55,089 bases of DNA from a bacterium (GTDB lineage: Bacteria > Armatimonadota > Chthonomonadetes > Chthonomonadales > JAMCWF01). Position 1 is the first letter of the stretch. Every line of letters begins with the position of its first letter. The stretch spans positions 1 to 55,089 of the forward strand of contig JAKBZR010000009.1 of assembly GCA_021842405.1 (NCBI GenBank), in the 5' to 3' direction. The translations under genes and the position numbers were made by a program. The notes below the pieces were generated by a model that was given only the letters and a program-made list of their open reading frames with translations, had not been told where the DNA came from and did no database searches. Below are positions 4,068 to 52,871 of this stretch, piece after piece.

Positions 4068-5192
4068 ATGAATAACAGAGTTCGCCGGTTTCACCTTCCC
4101 GTTTTTCTCATGCTGACGCTGATGGGTGGATTGCTCATCGCTACAGACGGCCCCGCTCAAGCCGGCGGTGCGGGAGGTCTGTTTAACCGTTCCGCTGAAA
4201 GCCATCCAGCTCCGTTGCGACCAGCCGCCTCACCGTCGAGACCATCCTTCTCACCCTCCAGATCTTCACCGGCACTGCCATCGTCCACGCCCGATTTTCA
4301 CGGCCATCGAGGATCTGGAGGAGGTTTCGGTGGCGGGTTTTCGTTTCCGTCCGTGCGCCCAGCGACCTCAGGCGGCGCTTATAATCTCTTCAACCGCTCC
4401 CGAGAGGGGCAAATTTACAACCGCCAGGCCGGGCTAGCACCGACCAGTCCAAACTGGATTCCAGGCAGTTACCTATACTATTACACTCCATTGGGCTCTT
4501 ACTTTCCTAATATCGAAGTTCCAGCCACCTCTTGGCCTGAAACGGCGGCCACCGCGGCAATGTGGCAGTCTCCTTCTGTATACGTGAACGGTTATGGTCT
4601 TTTCAGGAGCGGATTCATGATTGGTGCAACGCTAAATTACTCGCTGAGCGCTCCATCGCTCGGCAATCCCCATTCCAGTTCGTATGAAAGCATCTCATCG
4701 GCAGCCAAAGGCCGGGCCGCTCGATCTGCCCAAAACGCGATCAATATTCCACAATTGATGCAAAGTGATGCCTGGCTTAAAGTGGCGGGCCATCCGCTGC
4801 TGGTTCAAGCCTTAAACGATATCAGCGATGGTTGGAAGAGCGGCTCCATTGCCACAATCAAAAAAAACGTTGATCCAGCGCTGAAAATTAACATCTTTGA
4901 CGGCGGCCGTTTCATCCAAGCAATGACGGCTCAGTCCTACTTGACGGCAACAAAAATGGCGATGGCCTCCGTCACAACGACCGCTTTTCGGTTCTTTTCC
5001 ATTCACGAGCAAAGCACCGGCTTGTACTGGGCGGACGCCGTTCACGTTTATCGCACCAAAAGAGGCCAAAACCAGTACCTCTTTTTCCGATTCTCATTGC
5101 GGCGCGTTGCGAATCGGTGGTTAATCACGGAAGTGAATATGACTTCCCAAGTGAGTGATCTTGGCTTCAACTCACTACCCGGCAGCGGTTAA
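4068..5192 (+). CDS. Secreted protein with Ser/Pro-rich region and NTF2/Tim44-like C-terminal domain
   Basis: 374 residues. Residues 1-32 form a signal peptide (arginines, then FLMLTLMGGLLIATDGPAQA). Residues about 35-75 are low-complexity Ser/Pro, and residues about 78-90 are Gly-rich (GGGFGGGFSF). This pattern matches proteins in which a disordered, export-side linker precedes a Tim44/NTF2-like domain. The C-terminal ~130 residues (from about LMQSDAWLKV) contain alternating helices and strands ending in YLFFRFSLRRVANRWLITEV, typical of an NTF2/SnoaL-like fold. No catalytic residues can be named. The ATG has a GGAGG site 6 bases upstream, next to a hairpin. Function unknown; the fold call is an inference. 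Confidence 0.65.
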   Translation: MNNRVRRFHLPVFLMLTLMGGLLIATDGPAQAGGAGGLFNRSAESHPAPLRPAASPSRPSFSPSRSSPALPSSTPDFHGHRGSGGGFGGGFSFPSVRPATSGGAYNLFNRSREGQIYNRQAGLAPTSPNWIPGSYLYYYTPLGSYFPNIEVPATSWPETAATAAMWQSPSVYVNGYGLFRSGFMIGATLNYSLSAPSLGNPHSSSYESISSAAKGRAARSAQNAINIPQLMQSDAWLKVAGHPLLVQALNDISDGWKSGSIATIKKNVDPALKINIFDGGRFIQAMTAQSYLTATKMAMASVTTTAFRFFSIHEQSTGLYWADAVHVYRTKRGQNQYLFFRFSLRRVANRWLITEVNMTSQVSDLGFNSLPGSG

Positions 5193-18507: not shown

Positions 18508-19800
18508 ATGCTGGATCGCTATTCTACCCCGCAAATGCGCGAAATCTGGTCCTTGCAAAATCGCACTCAGCGCTGGCTCGACGTGGAGCTGGCCGTCTGT
18601 GAGGCGCTTGAACGGGCCGGTCGAATCCCGGCCGGAACTGCCGCCGCCTGCCGCAAGGACGCCCGCTTTGACCTTCAGCGGATGGCCGAGCTGGAAAAAG
18701 AGACCCAGCACGACGTGATGGCCTTCGTGAAGAACGTGCAGGAGAACCTGGGCGACGAGGGACGATTCATCCACTACGGCATCACCTCCTATGATGTGGT
18801 GGATACCGCCCTCTCGTTGATGATGAAGGAATCGCTGGAGCTGATCCTATCCCGCTGCGGCGACCTGCAAGAGGTGATCCGACTACGCGCCCGCGAGCAC
18901 AAATGGACATGGATGATCGGCCGCACTCACGGCATCCACGCCGAGCCGATCACCTTCGGTTTTAAGCTAGCCGGCTGGCTGGACGAGATGAACCGCAACG
19001 TGGAGCGGTTGAATGCGGCGAAAGAGGCGATCGCCTACGGCAAGATATCCGGCGCGGTGGGCACTCATTCCAACTTCGATCCGGCGGTGGAGGCGATGGT
19101 ATGCCAAAACTTGGGCTTGAAGGTGGCGCCGACCTCCACTCAGATCATCTCGCGCGACCGCCACGCCCAGGCCGTTACCGCGCTGGCGATCCTGGCCGCC
19201 TCGCTGGAGCGGTTCGCCACCGAGATCCGGAACCTGCAACGCACCGAGGTTCTGGAGGTTCAGGAGTACTTCGCCAGCGGGCAGAAGGGCTCCTCCGCCA
19301 TGCCCCATAAGCGCAATCCTTGGAACTGCGAGACCGTCAGCGGCCTGGCGCGGGTGGCGCGCGGCAACGCGCTCGCCATGCTGGAGAGCGTGGTGACCTG
19401 GCACGAGCGGGACCTATCCAACTCTTCGGTGGAGCGGATTGTTTTGCCGGATACCTGCGCGCTGGTAGAGTGGATGCTGGTCAAATTCACCAGCATCCTG
19501 CAAAATCTGGTGGTTTTCCCCCAAAATATGCGCCGCAACCTGGAAAAGATGGGCGGCCTGGTCTGCTCCGAGCAGGTGATGCTGGCCCTCATCGCGGCCG
19601 GCCTATCCCGTGAGGAGGCCTACACGGCGGTTCAGCGCAACGCAGCCAAAGCCTGGGACGGCGCCGACTTCCGCACCGAGCTGGAGGCGGACCCGACGGT
19701 GGCCGCCACCCTCTCCAAGCAGGAGCTCAGCCGCTGTTTCGACATCGCCCACCACCTCCGCAACCTGGAGCATACGTTCAAGGTGATGGGATTGGAGTGA
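18508..19800 (+). CDS. purB: Adenylosuccinate lyase
   Basis: 430 residues, normal for PurB. The enzyme acts twice in purine synthesis, removing fumarate from SAICAR and from adenylosuccinate. It belongs to the fumarase/aspartase superfamily. Seen here: YSTPQMREIWS at the N-terminus, GITSYDVVDTA and GRTHGIHAEPITFG (catalytic His regions) and the signature loop GSSAMPHKRNPWNCE with the catalytic Ser at about residues 265-280. Single gene on the plus strand; the 240 bases after it hold only the tRNA-Gln promoter. Confidence 0.97.
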   Translation: MLDRYSTPQMREIWSLQNRTQRWLDVELAVCEALERAGRIPAGTAAACRKDARFDLQRMAELEKETQHDVMAFVKNVQENLGDEGRFIHYGITSYDVVDTALSLMMKESLELILSRCGDLQEVIRLRAREHKWTWMIGRTHGIHAEPITFGFKLAGWLDEMNRNVERLNAAKEAIAYGKISGAVGTHSNFDPAVEAMVCQNLGLKVAPTSTQIISRDRHAQAVTALAILAASLERFATEIRNLQRTEVLEVQEYFASGQKGSSAMPHKRNPWNCETVSGLARVARGNALAMLESVVTWHERDLSNSSVERIVLPDTCALVEWMLVKFTSILQNLVVFPQNMRRNLEKMGGLVCSEQVMLALIAAGLSREEAYTAVQRNAAKAWDGADFRTELEADPTVAATLSKQELSRCFDIAHHLRNLEHTFKVMGLE

Positions 19801-34779: not shown

Positions 34780-34808
34780 AGTATATCGCGGGTATCGCCG
34801 AGTGTCAA
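34780..34808 (-). promoter_or_regulatory. Sigma-70 promoter of the zinc-ribbon/L7/L12-like gene
   Basis: On the minus strand TTGACA (34803-34808), a 17-base spacer and TATACT (34780-34785). The upstream edge lies five bases from the end of a family A element. Confidence 0.88.
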
Positions 34809-34813
34809 GGAAA

Positions 34814-35022
34814 GAGTTCAGTTTTCGGGGAATGATTTACGACCATATTGGATGCACCCCCACCCTAACCCTCCCCCGTAAACGGGGGAGGGGATTAAGA
34901 GGGACTGGGGGGCAAGATAAAAGCACCGCCGCTAAACTCCCTCCCCCACTAGGGGGGAGGGAGTTGATTATGGCTATAGGGGTAAAGCCTGCTGCCTAAA
35001 TTACCCAGAGAACTGAACTCTT
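34814..35022. repeat. Dispersed element, family A, copy 5
   Basis: Left end GAGTTCAGTTTTCGGGGAA and right end CCAGAGAACTGAACTCTT give good terminal inverted repeats. Two palindromic modules lie inside (CTCCCCCGTAAACGGGGGAG and CTCCCTCCCCCACTAGGGGG). No coding potential. Confidence 0.85.
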
Positions 35023-47910: not shown

Positions 47911-49368
47911 CTATTTCGCGCCCATCGCTTCTCCAATGGCATGGTGGAGTGCAGCCAGCGCAATGGATAGACCGTAACGGGCGTTGACCTGGTTTGCTTC
48001 CGCCGTAGCGAGCGCGGCCTGGGCATCCTCAACCTGGAGGAATATTCCGACGCCGGCCCGGTACTGCCCTTCGGCCAGCCGCAGCGACTCCTGCGCGTTG
48101 GCGACTTCAGCGGTCGAAGTGATGATGCGCTGTTGATTATTGGTTACGTTCAAATACGCCTGAGTGACCTCATTTATCGTCTGTTGTTGACTGAGTGCCA
48201 GTTGCGATCGCGCTGAGGCCAAGTTCGCCTCAGCCTGTTTAATCTGGCCTTTGGTGTACCCCGAATCGAAAAAATCCCAGCTCAGCCTGACGCCGCCCAC
48301 ACGATCAATGGTGGTGCCCGGAAATTCCGATCCCACCGCGCTGTATGATCCGGTCGCGTATAACGAAGGCAAATTTCCGGTGCGACTGCTTCTCAACGAA
48401 GCCTCACTCGATTTAACCAGCGCCTCCGCTTGTAGAACCTGCGGCCTCGTATCAAGCGATTGACTGATCAATTGATTCAGCGAAGGCAGATTCACCGGTT
48501 GCAACGGGACGTTGGCCACTTTGATCGGAGTTCGGGGGTCAATCCCCATCGCAAGATTAAGGCTCGTCCGGCTGAGCGCTTCGCTGTTCTCGTCGGTGGA
48601 GAGGGTCAGCAGCGCTTGAGCCAGATTGGCCTGCGCTTGAACCACATCGGATTGGGGAACCGTACCGGCGTTAAATTGAGCGCGCGCCTCATCCAGGTGC
48701 GCCTGCTGCGATGCCACCGTCTGATGATCCACCTGAACGAGCTGATGGTCTTCCAGCAGCGTCAGGTAAGCGCTTGTGATATTGTAGATGGTATCTTGCA
48801 TCGCCTGATCCAATGCGGCGCGATCGGACGTTTCTTGAAAACGAGCGGCGTGCAGATTGTTGCCGGTTCGGTTGAAATCGTAAAGGAGCTGTTGCACCGA
48901 AATTCCCTCATCAAAGCTGTCGGGCGGCAAGCTGGTGCCTGAAGCGCCGCCGCCAAATCCGGGCCGCGTGATATCGCTACGGGAGTAGCTGCTGCTGATC
49001 GAAAAGGTGGGGTAAAGCCGAGAAGCAGCTTGAATGGTGCGTCCGGCGGCGGCATTTAAGGTTTGCCTGGCAATCATCAACTGCGGCTGATGCTGCAAAC
49101 CGATCTGTATCGCTTGAGTGAGCGTAATCGGCTTTGAGGTGGGAGCGATCGGTACCATGCCTTTCGGCAGGCTTGGCGCAATTAAGGGTAATAGTTTCGC
49201 CGGCGGAGGAACCCGCAGCGGCGGTGCTTTTTCTCCAGTAATGGTCATCGGCCCGCTTGTCTTTTCCTGGCTCGCCGCCATCGCACTGGACATCACTTCC
49301 ACCAGCAGCACGGTCAATAGGATGGGTATCGCTCTAAATCTTCTCTTCGGTAAAATGTCTACCCCGAT
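47911..49368 (-). CDS. TolC-family outer-membrane efflux protein, probable ATC start
   Basis: 485 residues if begun at ATC (49366-49368). The first conventional start, TTG at 49317, falls inside the signal peptide and leaves it without basic residues; the upstream frame adds LPKRRFRAIPIL, giving a normal signal peptide ending near SAMAAS. The ATC is eight bases from GGGAGGG (49377-49383), and no ATG, GTG or TTG is in frame before the upstream TGA. ATT at 49356 is another option. The body shows two repeats of the TolC helical fold (TLTQAIQIGLQHQPQLMIAR; later SQLALSQQQTINEVTQAYLN). It should be the outer-membrane duct for the adaptor and ABC proteins downstream. Confidence 0.88.
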   Translation of the reverse strand: MGVDILPKRRFRAIPILLTVLLVEVMSSAMAASQEKTSGPMTITGEKAPPLRVPPPAKLLPLIAPSLPKGMVPIAPTSKPITLTQAIQIGLQHQPQLMIARQTLNAAAGRTIQAASRLYPTFSISSSYSRSDITRPGFGGGASGTSLPPDSFDEGISVQQLLYDFNRTGNNLHAARFQETSDRAALDQAMQDTIYNITSAYLTLLEDHQLVQVDHQTVASQQAHLDEARAQFNAGTVPQSDVVQAQANLAQALLTLSTDENSEALSRTSLNLAMGIDPRTPIKVANVPLQPVNLPSLNQLISQSLDTRPQVLQAEALVKSSEASLRSSRTGNLPSLYATGSYSAVGSEFPGTTIDRVGGVRLSWDFFDSGYTKGQIKQAEANLASARSQLALSQQQTINEVTQAYLNVTNNQQRIITSTAEVANAQESLRLAEGQYRAGVGIFLQVEDAQAALATAEANQVNARYGLSIALAALHHAIGEAMGAK

Positions 49369-49624
49369 CGCTCAATCCCTCCCTTAAATCATGATGAATT
49401 GATATTTAGGTATTGACGGCAAGCACCGGCAATTGTTCAGATGTTACCTTAGGCCAAGCCTCTTCGAGAAGCTCTCGAAACCATTTCGTTCATAAGACTA
49501 AATCACTCTCGAGTAGGTTTCGCTCGGCTGGATTTCATTGATAGCCTCCATTTAATCTCCCATTTCCTCTCAATTTCCTCAGTGGGATGTATACAGATTT
49601 CTATCGTTTCATGGTATGTATCAG

Positions 49625-49644
49625 TAGTGGATATTTATCTACTA
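49625..49644. promoter_or_regulatory. 9-2-9 palindromic operator before the Y-family polymerase
   Basis: TAGTGGATATTTATCTACTA: the arms match at eight of nine positions. It sits 27-46 bases upstream of the polymerase ATG, where a repressor such as LexA would block transcription. A second copy differing at one base lies at 52436. LexA site sequences vary between phyla, so LexA is a guess. The rest of 49384-49624 holds no gene. Confidence 0.6.
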
Positions 49645-49670
49645 TTCTAAGCAATCAGGAGGCAGACAAG

Positions 49671-50936
49671 ATGGCCAGCCGTTACTTCTTTATGGATATG
49701 AACGCCTTCTTTGCCAGCGTCGAGCAGCAGGAGCGGCCGGAGCTGCGCGGCCGACCCATCGTTGTGGCGCCGGTGCTGGTGGATACCACATGCGCCATCG
49801 CCGCCAGCTACGAGGCCAAAAAATGGGGCATCAAAACCGGCACCTCGGTGAAGCAGGCCCGCCTCATCTGCCCCGAGCTGCAGATCGTGGAGTCCAGGCC
49901 GGAGCTCTATATGAGCTACCACCGTCGCATCCTAGAGGTGTTGAACGACCACTTCACCGACATCAAGGTCTTCTCGGTGGATGAGGTGGGCTGCCCGGTG
50001 GCCTTTCTCTACGATACCGCCGAGAAAGAGCGGCGGATGGCGCAGCGGGTTAAGGAACAGCTTTATCATGAGCTCGGGTCCTATATGCGCTGCTCGGTCG
50101 GCATTGCGCCCAACATCTTCTTAGCGAAGGTGGCCGCCGAGATGCAAAAGCCGGATGGGCTGACGCTGTTGGATCACTTCAACCTCAAGGAGGCGCTCTG
50201 CCGCCTCGACCTGAGCGCACTGCCGGGGATCGGGTCGGCGATGGAGCGGCGGCTTAATCGGTTCGGCATCCACACGGTGGAAGCGCTTTGGAACGCCTCC
50301 CCCTGGCAGCTTCGGCGGGCGTGGGGCAGCGTGGTGGGTGCGAGGTGGTACTTCATGCTGCGCGGCAGCCACCAGTGCGACTACACGGTTCCAATCGAGC
50401 GGGTGCGCCAATCGGTCGGCCATTCGCACGTGCTGCCGCCCGATCTGCGTAACCCGGACGGCGCCCGAGGCATCCTGTTGCAACTGTGCGCCCGCGCCTT
50501 AAAGCGCCTCCGGGATTACCGGCAGAAGGCCGCCTCGGTGGAGGTGGAGGTTCGCTACCGCCTGCTGCACTCCCACGGCAGTCGGATATGGCGCTGCGGG
50601 AGTCGCCGCCACCCTCACTCCAGCGACGATGTGACTTGGCTAAAGGTGGTGCGTCCCATCCTGGCCGCCATGCCGAACTTAACCGGCGTTGCGGCGCCGG
50701 AGTGGGTGGCGATCTCGTTCAGCGATCTGCTGGCCGATCACGATGTACCACTGAGCCTTTTCGAGGAGTATCGGAGCCGGGCGCGTTGCGCTTCAACGGT
50801 GGATATCATTAATGACCGCTTCGGCCATGTGGTGGATTTGTTGTCAATCCAAGAGCACTACGGTCGGGTTCCTCGCCGAATCCCGTTCGGCCCGCCGACA
50901 TCGGCCCTGTTTCCACCGGTTCCAGGCTCAGGTTAG
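49671..50936 (+). CDS. Y-family DNA polymerase (DinB/Pol IV-like)
   Basis: 421 residues from the ATG at 49671, set by AGGAGG seven bases upstream. Y-family enzymes copy damaged DNA with low fidelity. Catalytic acids are in FMDMNAFFASVEQ (Asp) and VFSVDEVG (Asp-Glu, in place of the usual SIDE). SYEAKKWGIKTG, VGIAPNIFLAKVAAE and LPGIGSAMERRLNRFGI (helix-hairpin-helix of the thumb) are conserved. A PLSLF segment near residue 360 resembles a clamp-binding motif. A palindromic operator precedes it, which fits damage-induced control. Divergence from canonical DinB leaves a UmuC-type role possible. Confidence 0.9.
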   Translation: MASRYFFMDMNAFFASVEQQERPELRGRPIVVAPVLVDTTCAIAASYEAKKWGIKTGTSVKQARLICPELQIVESRPELYMSYHRRILEVLNDHFTDIKVFSVDEVGCPVAFLYDTAEKERRMAQRVKEQLYHELGSYMRCSVGIAPNIFLAKVAAEMQKPDGLTLLDHFNLKEALCRLDLSALPGIGSAMERRLNRFGIHTVEALWNASPWQLRRAWGSVVGARWYFMLRGSHQCDYTVPIERVRQSVGHSHVLPPDLRNPDGARGILLQLCARALKRLRDYRQKAASVEVEVRYRLLHSHGSRIWRCGSRRHPHSSDDVTWLKVVRPILAAMPNLTGVAAPEWVAISFSDLLADHDVPLSLFEEYRSRARCASTVDIINDRFGHVVDLLSIQEHYGRVPRRIPFGPPTSALFPPVPGSG

Positions 50937-51058
50937 GTAGACTTTAGATCTAATTCCTGCCCAAAACGGCCCTGTTTTTCCGTTACAACGACAAATTAGT
51001 TAGCGAGCTGTTCTTAATAGAAAGAGTTCAACTGATTTAAATGCCGGCCGGCGCGGCA

Positions 51059-51085
51059 GAGATTCCCCGCCGAGCAGGGAATCTC
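51059..51085 (-). terminator. Hairpin after the metal-response operon
   Basis: GAGATTCCC and GGGAATCTC pair perfectly around a nine-base loop, 54 bases after the stop of the Cys-rich peptide gene. No T-run follows, so termination is inferred from position. The remaining space to the polymerase stop at 50936 shows nothing. Confidence 0.45.
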
Positions 51086-51138: not shown

Positions 51139-51228
51139 CTATTTGGGCGGGCAGCACGGGCAGCTTGGATCATCGGGGCAGTCTGGGCAATTGGGGCACT
51201 TGCCTCCATCCGCGCGATTTTTCCACAT
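51139..51228 (-). CDS. 29-residue Cys/Pro-rich peptide, possible metal binder
   Basis: The peptide begins MWKNRADGGK and ends in CPCCPPK. It has six Cys (positions 11, 14, 17, 23, 25, 26) and seven Pro. The CxxCxxC spacing and paired Cys resemble small metallothionein-like binders of soft metals. Its ribosome site AGGGAGGTGATCC (51231-51243) is an extended complement of the 16S rRNA 3' end, far stronger than chance, and starts two bases before the 184-codon gene's stop. It is third in an operon with an ArsR regulator and a CopZ-N-like protein, which supports a role in metal handling. Not recognised as a named family; function is an inference. Confidence 0.72.
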   Translation of the reverse strand: MWKNRADGGKCPNCPDCPDDPSCPCCPPK

Positions 51229-51244
51229 ACGGATCACCTCCCTT

Positions 51245-51760
51245 CTATCTCGATTTGACCACTCTTGGCCATGCGTCCTTCACCGCTCGGCTCACGTTTC
51301 CCAAGCAGCATGCGCCCTGCGGGTTCCGGATTTCGCATTCACAGCGTCCGTCCTTTACCGCAGCCGATATTTGAGCCACCACGGTGGAGCGTCCGGTGCG
51401 CTCAATCTCATCCCGAATCGAGCCGCGCGTGTGGTGAAAGCAGTAGCAGACGGGCGTGGAATCGGCCTCGCTCTTTTGCGTCACTGGGACCAGAATCTCA
51501 TCCACGCAAAAGGTCTCGCCGCCCGATTTGGAGTAGTAGACCACCGGGCAGTCAGCGATTTCGCAAAAAAGGTAACGATCGGGCTGCATCTGCTCTTTGG
51601 CATCGGCTTTAAGCAGGTTCGCGAGCGTGATGTTACCCACCCACTTGCCGCGCTTCCCGCACTGCGGGCAAAGCGGCGCCCGCTCCGTTTTGGCTGAAGC
51701 GGAGCAGCAAGGCTCCGAACAATCACCCGCTTGGTAGGAACAGCACTCTTCTTGCATCAT
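51245..51760 (-). CDS. CopZ N-terminal-domain-like zinc/[2Fe-2S] protein, without HMA domain
   Basis: 171 residues from the ATG at 51760, preferred because GAGGAG lies just upstream (a second ATG follows at once; an in-frame GTG at 51799 is possible). Cys-rich N-terminus (QEECCSYQAGDCSEPCCS), then CPQCGKRGKWV, YLFCEIADCPVVYY, PVCYCFHHTRGSI and GRCECEIRNPQGACCLG. This series matches the N-terminal domain of Archaeoglobus CopZ, which binds zinc and a [2Fe-2S] cluster. CopZ also has a copper-binding HMA domain, which is absent here. It lies between an ArsR regulator and a Cys-rich peptide, so redox-linked metal handling or resistance is likely. Confidence 0.82.
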   Translation of the reverse strand: MMQEECCSYQAGDCSEPCCSASAKTERAPLCPQCGKRGKWVGNITLANLLKADAKEQMQPDRYLFCEIADCPVVYYSKSGGETFCVDEILVPVTQKSEADSTPVCYCFHHTRGSIRDEIERTGRSTVVAQISAAVKDGRCECEIRNPQGACCLGNVSRAVKDAWPRVVKSR

Positions 51761-51804
51761 CGTCTCCTCTGGAATATGAATTTGATGGCGGCAATCCACG
51801 AAAT

Positions 51805-52203
51805 CTAAAACGGTTGTGGCGGAGATGTTTGCGGCTGTGTAAGGGCGAAAACCAAGCCGGCGAGCATCTTTGCCTGGGACTCGACGCTGAAATAGTAGCA
51901 GACGAATTTGCCATCTTTTCGAGCCTTTAAAATGCCGGCCATCATCATGACTTTTAAATGATGGGAGACCGCGGACATGGTCATATCCAGCATGGTTGCT
52001 AGCTCGCAGACGTAGAGCGGCTCGCAGCTTAATGCAAAAAGAATTTTAGCCCGCACCGGATCGGCGATCGCCTTAAGGAGCCAGCTCGCCCGCTCGAAAT
52101 TCTCATCCGACGGTAATAACTTGGCCACCCGGCGCACCCGGGTCGGATCGTCCTGGCAGGCGTCGCAGGTCAGTGCATCCAAATCTCGGTCAATCACCCG
52201 CAT
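51805..52203 (-). CDS. ArsR/SmtB/CadC-family metal-responsive repressor
   Basis: 132 residues. The winged helix-turn-helix is at about residues 40-105 (LKAIADPVRAKILFALSCEP, VCELATMLDMTMSAVSHHLK, GILKARKDGKFVCYYF). Two N-terminal Cys (LTCDACQDD) and one in LYVCELA resemble the alpha3N metal site of CadC, which senses Cd, Pb, Bi or Zn; the ELCVC motif is only partly kept, so the metal is uncertain. These repressors leave DNA when metal binds. ATG at 52203 with AAGGGG upstream; the CopZ-N-like gene follows 44 bases after its stop (start at 51760). An inverted repeat in its upstream region may be its own operator. Confidence 0.9.
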   Translation of the reverse strand: MRVIDRDLDALTCDACQDDPTRVRRVAKLLPSDENFERASWLLKAIADPVRAKILFALSCEPLYVCELATMLDMTMSAVSHHLKVMMMAGILKARKDGKFVCYYFSVESQAKMLAGLVFALTQPQTSPPQPF

Positions 52204-52233
52204 ATTTTCCCCTTCAATTTGAGCGACATTAGT

Positions 52234-52251
52234 TCAATGATTAAACATTCA
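52234..52251 (-). promoter_or_regulatory. Candidate operator of the ArsR-type repressor
   Basis: Imperfect inverted repeat TGAATG-TTTAAT-CATTGA in an AT-rich stretch 31-48 bases before the repressor ATG. Arm length and placement fit ArsR/SmtB sites, but there is one mismatch. Confidence 0.5.
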
Positions 52252-52435
52252 TTTAAATATTACGTTGTTGTATTCCAAATCATTTCATCTTTAATCCCAA
52301 AGGATCAGATTTAATTCGGTGCCTGGAGATACACTCTTTCCGAAGCGATGAAATTTTAGACTATTTGAAGGAGATCGCTTCAGTATAACAAATTAAAGGG
52401 GTACCTATTTCCACCGTTCCGTTCAATGGAATCAA

Positions 52436-52455: not shown

Positions 52456-52510
52456 CTCTAAACGATAGGTCATTACCCGACTGCGGTGTCCAGGTTGCTA
52501 ATTATTGAAT

Positions 52511-52713
52511 GAGTTCAGTTCTCTGGGCAATTTAAGCAGGAAACCCTCACTACCTGTCTGCCGCCAGGCAGGCAGACAGGCAACTCTTTTCCCAATCCTG
52601 AGAGAGGACTGGTGAAGGAGATTGCTTCGCTTCGCTCGCAATGACACCCTCCCGCTTGCGGGGAGGGATGGGGTGGGGTCGAACGAAAATTACCCCCGTA
52701 GAACTGAACTCTT
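52511..52713. repeat. Dispersed element, family A, copy 7
   Basis: Left end GAGTTCAGTTCTCTGGGCAA and right end GAACTGAACTCTT. Carries TGTCTGCCGCCAGGCAGGCA (also in the 41634 copy, shortened), GATTGCTTCGCTTCGCTCGC followed by CAATGAC, and CCCTCCCGCTTGCGGGGAGG. Lies upstream of the SDR gene; 52714-52871 shows nothing else. Confidence 0.87.
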
Positions 52714-52871
52714 TCTATTAATAACCTTCAAGCAATCGTCGGGCCCCTACTTCATCGAAAGATGAGCAGGAAATAGGGCGGGAAAGTCTAAATGACACTC
52801 GGAAATGGGGCTGGATGGAGCTTTGGGCAAACCGAGCAAATGATGCTAACCAAATTAAGATGAGGTGAGAT

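Follow-up and report, generated by a model that had tools for sequence, protein, structure and literature searches.

Bacterial metallothioneins are, to our knowledge, considered few and have been found through homology to one or two families. Control of metallothionein genes by ArsR-family repressors has precedents in SmtB-SmtA, BxmR-BmtA and AzuR-NmtA, and BxmR and BmtA are encoded in an operon (PMC8790569). The stretch of DNA analyzed here (the window, 55,089 nt from a bacterium of the Armatimonadota) contains a locus that, like SmtB-SmtA of Synechococcus and BxmR-BmtA of Oscillatoria, places an ArsR/SmtB-family gene beside a small, Cys-rich and putatively metal-binding peptide, and it is best read as a variant of this theme. 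In contrast to the divergent arrangement of SmtB and SmtA, the window genes share one strand. The window peptide additionally differs from SmtA and BmtA by its length of only 29 residues, by the lack of a metallothionein match in Pfam or NCBIfam up to an E-value of 1, and by a CopZ-N gene that lies between repressor and peptide.

The CopZ-N protein can itself be compared with described proteins. It matches family NF047645 (CopZ_Nterm_CC, putative iron-sulfur cluster-binding metallochaperones) over the full length and with conserved Cys residues, but has an extra N-terminal CC..C..CC tail and no MerT or MerP neighbor. It also resembles the Zn- and [2Fe-2S]-containing N-terminal half of Archaeoglobus fulgidus CopZ (PDB 2hu9, which comprises the N-terminal domain only), whereas the C-terminal HMA copper-binding domain that carries the CxxC motif is missing. 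ArsR-regulated mer operons, composed of ArsR, MerT or MerTP, CopZ-N and MerA, share with the window CopZ-N and an ArsR protein with 51-55% identity. These operons differ from the window genome, in which no protein matched MerT at E<=1 or exceeded the cut-off for MerA. The features of the locus are as follows:

51805..52203, minus strand: gene for an ArsR/SmtB-family repressor of 132 aa with partly CadC-like layout (PF01022, NF033788, alignment)
51245..51760, minus strand: gene for a stand-alone CopZ-N protein without HMA domain (NF047645, PF18423, PDB 2hu9)
51139..51228, stop codon included, minus strand: frame for the 29-residue Cys/Pro peptide MWKNRADGGKCPNCPDCPDDPSCPCCPPK (ORF and Shine-Dalgarno analysis)
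51231..51243, minus strand: extended Shine-Dalgarno (SD) sequence of the peptide, AGGGAGGTGATCC (SD ranking and pattern scan)
51059..51085, minus strand: near-perfect hairpin of 12-15 bp, 3' of the peptide frame, without T tract
52233..52256, minus strand: candidate ArsR operator, imperfect inverted repeat TTAAATGA-8-TCATTGAA, upstream of arsR

The three frames follow each other on the minus strand as an earlier note on this DNA had described, and its view of a compact, ArsR-controlled metal-response unit is supported by the gene order and by the family identities of ArsR and CopZ-N. The CopZ-N frame most likely starts with the ATG at 51760, which is preceded by AGAGGAG and lies about 45 nt past the ArsR stop codon; a longer frame of 184 aa would begin with the GTG at 51799. 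The peptide ATG at 51228 is located 16 nt past the CopZ-N stop codon and the gap is filled by the SD sequence. Downstream follows a convergent DinB-type gene (49587-50936, plus strand), and only past it does another gene on the minus strand occur (47911-49317). The transcript, which faces the DinB-type gene, probably ends at the hairpin. The search for an operator yielded a single weak inverted repeat that is not common to relatives, and we regard it as a tentative candidate. A search against Rfam gave no match.

Judged by its winged helix-turn-helix, which scores above the cut-off, the protein encoded at 51805-52203 is an ArsR/SmtB metalloregulator (PF01022, E 7e-15; NF033788, over the cut-off). 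Of the two traits of a CadC-like alpha3N sensor, N-terminal Cys and a CVC motif in alpha3, the first is represented by TCDAC, and in the alignment the alpha3 motif reads YVCEL in place of CVCEL. The resulting YVC is one Cys short of the usual CVC, which mer-linked relatives retain, and this difference argues against a metal-responsive unit controlled by ArsR.

The CopZ-N protein combines a zinc domain and a BFD-like [2Fe-2S] domain with the extra N-terminal Cys tail, EECC..DC..PCC. Membership in NF047645 was judged by the whole-protein score, which is 125.5 bits at a curated cut-off of 100, together with the CYC...CxC...NPxGxCC core; further matches were obtained to PF18423 (E 6e-18) and PDB 2hu9 (E 1.5e-11). 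The 12 aligned relatives retain the Cys residues of both the zinc region and the [2Fe-2S] region, with C105, C107, C142, C151 and C152 being invariant. No match to the HMA profile PF00403 was detected in the protein, and the HMA domains of the genome reside in P-type-ATPase-sized frames on other contigs. The earlier note had proposed that the small peptide stands in for a lost HMA partner. This argument falls away because stand-alone CopZ-N proteins form a known, named family in which the absence of an HMA domain is normal, and because the 91 relatives described below usually adjoin mer genes and likewise have no HMA domain in the protein. Selenocysteine-containing versions of the CopZ-N family are listed in reviews of prokaryotic selenoproteomes (PMC9312934, PMC13188914). 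On plasmid pK2D_1, a 411-aa frame annotated as MerA (L019:3465-4700) matches CopZ-N in its N-terminal part and may represent a CopZ-N fusion.

An alignment-based contig search identified 454 CopZ-N relatives, 80 of which were kept, while the single CopZ-N protein as query gave no match. With phmmer queries, neighbors up to 3 kb from CopZ-N were counted at 91 loci, of which 80 belong to named genomes and 11 to the phylum and to plasmids. MerT was the most frequent neighbor (31 loci), followed by MerR (28), ArsR (21), P-type ATPases (11), MerF and HMA proteins (9 each) and MerB (6). In relatives from the phylum, ArsR, MerT or MerTP and CopZ-N are adjacent, and the closest relatives of the window ArsR are encoded beside MerTP and CopZ-N (55% identity) or beside MerA (51%). 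The genome that contains the window is 97% complete and yielded no PF02411 match at E<=1, although this profile does detect the MerT proteins of the relatives. The best match to TIGR02053 reached 394 bits, below the cut-off of 454, and reads as a dihydrolipoyl dehydrogenase rather than MerA. Neither the MerT/MerP transport nor the MerA reductase of a mer operon belongs to the window unit. Because CopZ-N occurs mostly beside mer genes and the closest ArsR relatives adjoin MerTP and CopZ-N or MerA, the unit looks like a cut-down mer-like operon from which MerT and MerA were lost or in which they had never been present.

The third frame encodes 29 aa including six Cys, seven Pro and a single aromatic residue, with three CxxC and one CxC motif. 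Its core, CPN CPD CPD DPS CPC CPP, forms a degenerate (C-P-x)6 array. All six core Pro codons are CCN with a variable third base, which is suggestive of constraint at the protein level, as far as six units can indicate. Within AGGGAGGTGATCC, 11 contiguous bases, GGAGGTGATCC, are complementary to the 3' end of 16S rRNA. The extended, near-perfect SD sequence that had been reported for the peptide is indeed the longest when the 1020 ATG frames with 20 or more codons across the 55-kb window are ranked, and genes of annotated size reach 7 nt. A second strong SD sequence in the window (10 nt, at 18770) precedes a frame that is antisense to purB and was rejected as spurious. When the surrounding 208 nt were dinucleotide-shuffled 20,000 times, 0.05% of the shuffles contained an ATG frame with six or more Cys in 25 or more codons, 0.015% had such a frame with an SD of 9 nt or longer, and none combined the two, so that the Cys/Pro peptide is very unlikely to have arisen by chance.

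With its small size, Cys content, CxC/CxxC spacing and few aromatic residues, the peptide has the traits of a metallothionein. It does not belong to an accepted family in Pfam or NCBIfam, and FeoB_associated (PF12669) was rejected because the score of 18.7 bits lies below the gathering score of 27. No homologue above background was detected in 291 genomes of the phylum, and none in the plasmids and phages searched. IMG/VR likewise gave no convincing homologue, the coding-pattern matches there being located mostly inside longer unrelated frames. The lack of a sequence homologue anywhere searched argues against a metallothionein function, and so does the resemblance of part of the peptide DNA to a genomic repeat: over a stretch of 17 nt, 16 bases are identical to the end of an abundant repeat, a score that was reached or exceeded in 3 of 3000 shuffles.

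Nevertheless, we consider it probable that the locus is a small ArsR-repressed detoxification operon, in which the peptide acts as a mini-metallothionein that buffers ions of the Hg/Cd/Cu type. This reading builds on the observed gene order, the strong SD sequence, the family identities, the mer context of the relatives and the recurrence of tiny Cys peptides with ArsR genes described below. A thiophilic ion such as Hg(II), Cd(II), Pb(II) or Cu(I) would bind to Cys thiolates of ArsR and take the repressor off its operator, and derepression would give rise to one mRNA for ArsR, the CopZ-N protein and abundant peptide. The Cys-rich tail and the Fe-S and Zn domains of the CopZ-N protein may hold the metal, and the peptide, presumably translated and metal-binding, could serve as a disposable metallothionein-like chelator for free metal, its CxxCxxC...CxCC spacing being propped by prolines. 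Onward transfer of the metal to separately encoded P-type ATPases would be possible. The mer context suggests that Hg is the most likely metal, while Cd, Pb or Cu are possible; the operon would presumably be induced by this metal. Since the unit encodes neither a transporter nor a reductase, binding and buffering would be its simplest action, and it would correspond to a mer-type operon minus MerT and MerA, plus an acquired mini-metallothionein. An argument against this function is that six Cys would bind one or two ions only, fewer than known metallothioneins do.

The idea of a tiny, ArsR-controlled Cys peptide is supported by its recurrence behind other ArsR genes of the phylum. A scan for DNA encoding CPxCPxCP, in which about 110 loci were read, uncovered in another genome from this order an exported peptide of 69 aa that ends in HCPPTCPPCCPPCPLCP, overlaps the ArsR stop codon (ATGA) and has a 9-nt SD sequence. 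It was the sole short in-frame ORF with an SD of at least 6 nt and the sole one with ArsR among these loci. With the linked ArsR as query, the loci of 49 relatives were read, and in 18 of them a Cys-rich ATG frame of 19-47 aa starts within -55 to +20 nt relative to the ArsR stop codon, compared to none of 605 control tiles from these loci and a single one of 1368 from unrelated loci. Three of the 18 peptides, from different genomes, are identical in sequence, which leaves about 16 different ones; of these, one or two (L327, L332) make less convincing members. Examples are MNEETCQCCSQGQCPCPEDCPDCDCC, MRRYRQLNPAVMGTQCCPCPDCCPSPCCEDCCGKK (SD of 11 nt) and MSETTCPCCANGPCACPPCQDGECKCPCCANGNCPCTENCPNCDCC, and the peptides at L308 and L311 have 11-nt SD sequences like the window peptide. 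Frames for such Cys peptides that abut or overlap the ArsR stop codon occur, unannotated, in numerous genomes of the phylum, at L293-L301, L303, L304, L307, L308, L311, L315 and L330, and five representative peptides had no match in Pfam or NCBIfam up to an E-value of 1.

The window peptide is likewise Cys-rich and part of an ArsR operon, but CopZ-N intervenes between ArsR and peptide. Its similarity to the mini-peptides is driven by composition and depends only marginally on residue order (best p 0.004 in 15 tests), and because this order-dependent similarity is weak, we claim the same kind of design and not homology. The peptide-rich ArsR group and the window ArsR belong to different subgroups, and other members of the window group do not have such a peptide, which speaks against a mini-metallothionein in the window. 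We see an even chance that the phylum has repeatedly evolved fast-diverging, ArsR-controlled mini-metallothioneins of 19-47 residues that annotation has missed, one of which was built onto a mer-derived ArsR-CopZ-N pair in the window species to yield a unit that detoxifies with neither a transporter nor a reductase. The tiny Cys peptides were found here by their position behind metal-sensing ArsR genes, with no profile match for those tested, in roughly one in three loci of a single ArsR group. If translated, such very short and quickly changing chelators would be a routine arm of metal defense that gene callers miss, and the trio of ArsR, CopZ-N and peptide would exemplify natural detoxification of the mercury type through binding alone. 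Literature searches turned up no description of ArsR-linked mini-peptides in the phylum or of the trio; for the trio, the earlier note likewise knew of none.

Alternatively, instead of chelating metal in bulk, the peptide could carry it specifically to CopZ-N or act as a redox partner of this protein, handing over Hg or Cu or keeping the CopZ-N thiols reduced, in place of MerP or an HMA domain. The 16-nt distance to CopZ-N and the CPxC motifs, which are similar to thiol-exchange sites, are in line with such a function, as is the absence here of the MerP/HMA or MerT proteins found beside CopZ-N in many relatives. One relative, a Bacteroidia bacterium (L090), has in its mer operon a 46-aa peptide, ...CCPACSPPEICCCR, directly after CopZ-N and with an 11-nt SD sequence, an arrangement in line with this alternative and equally with the mini-metallothionein reading. 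This exported Cys-rich peptide (4488-4628, plus strand), which ends in GCCPACSPPEICCCR, is flanked by CopZ-N and a CsoR-like gene, with MerA upstream, and had no match among plasmids. However, 90 of the 91 relatives have no such peptide directly after CopZ-N, indicating that CopZ-N has no need of one, and the other mini-peptides follow ArsR genes without CopZ-N nearby. We therefore regard a partnership with CopZ-N as unlikely. As no short frame homologous to the window peptide was present at any of the 91 loci, and the L090 peptide is merely analogous, the trio is not conserved by sequence. Of the earlier interpretation, the compact ArsR metal unit and the small Cys/Pro peptide are supported, but not the replacement of HMA, and the test proposed in the note, conservation of the short frame beside CopZ-N homologues, has a negative outcome at the sequence level. 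Two further small Cys proteins are encoded near CopZ-N at L134:3317 and L135:4420 (plus strand; 58 and 50 aa, CCPEPDCG... and ...GCCPAVEV...) and have no Pfam or NCBIfam match.

The peptide frame might also be an accidental or decaying ORF in a TGCCC-rich stretch, to which the repeat may have contributed, with an SD sequence that precedes it by coincidence. The lack of homologues, the match to the repeat end and the 10-nt SD in front of the spurious frame antisense to purB are compatible with this explanation. It appears quite improbable, however, given that SD, Cys content and length were never combined in the shuffles, that the SD sequence lies directly behind the CopZ-N stop codon, that the Pro codons differ only silently and that analogous peptides recur after ArsR genes. 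A Cys/Pro-codon leader or sensor peptide that attenuates a downstream gene, like metal-sensing uORFs, would agree with the high Cys content, the strong SD sequence and the downstream hairpin, but was rejected as very improbable, given the lack of a closely following gene on the same strand.

Apart from the operon itself, the window contains two copies (34808-35022 and 52508-52713) of the abundant repeat whose end the peptide DNA resembles. This interspersed element is MITE-like, measures about 165-230 nt and has inverted ends ..AGAACTGAACTC as well as a palindrome of the GGGGAGGG type. The 3.5-Mb genome has at least 40 copies that are nearly full-length, and 353 candidates at first look. Window positions 51010-51030, behind the hairpin of the peptide, match 52705-52725, the flank and end of the repeat copy across the operon, in inverted orientation at 20 of 21 nt.
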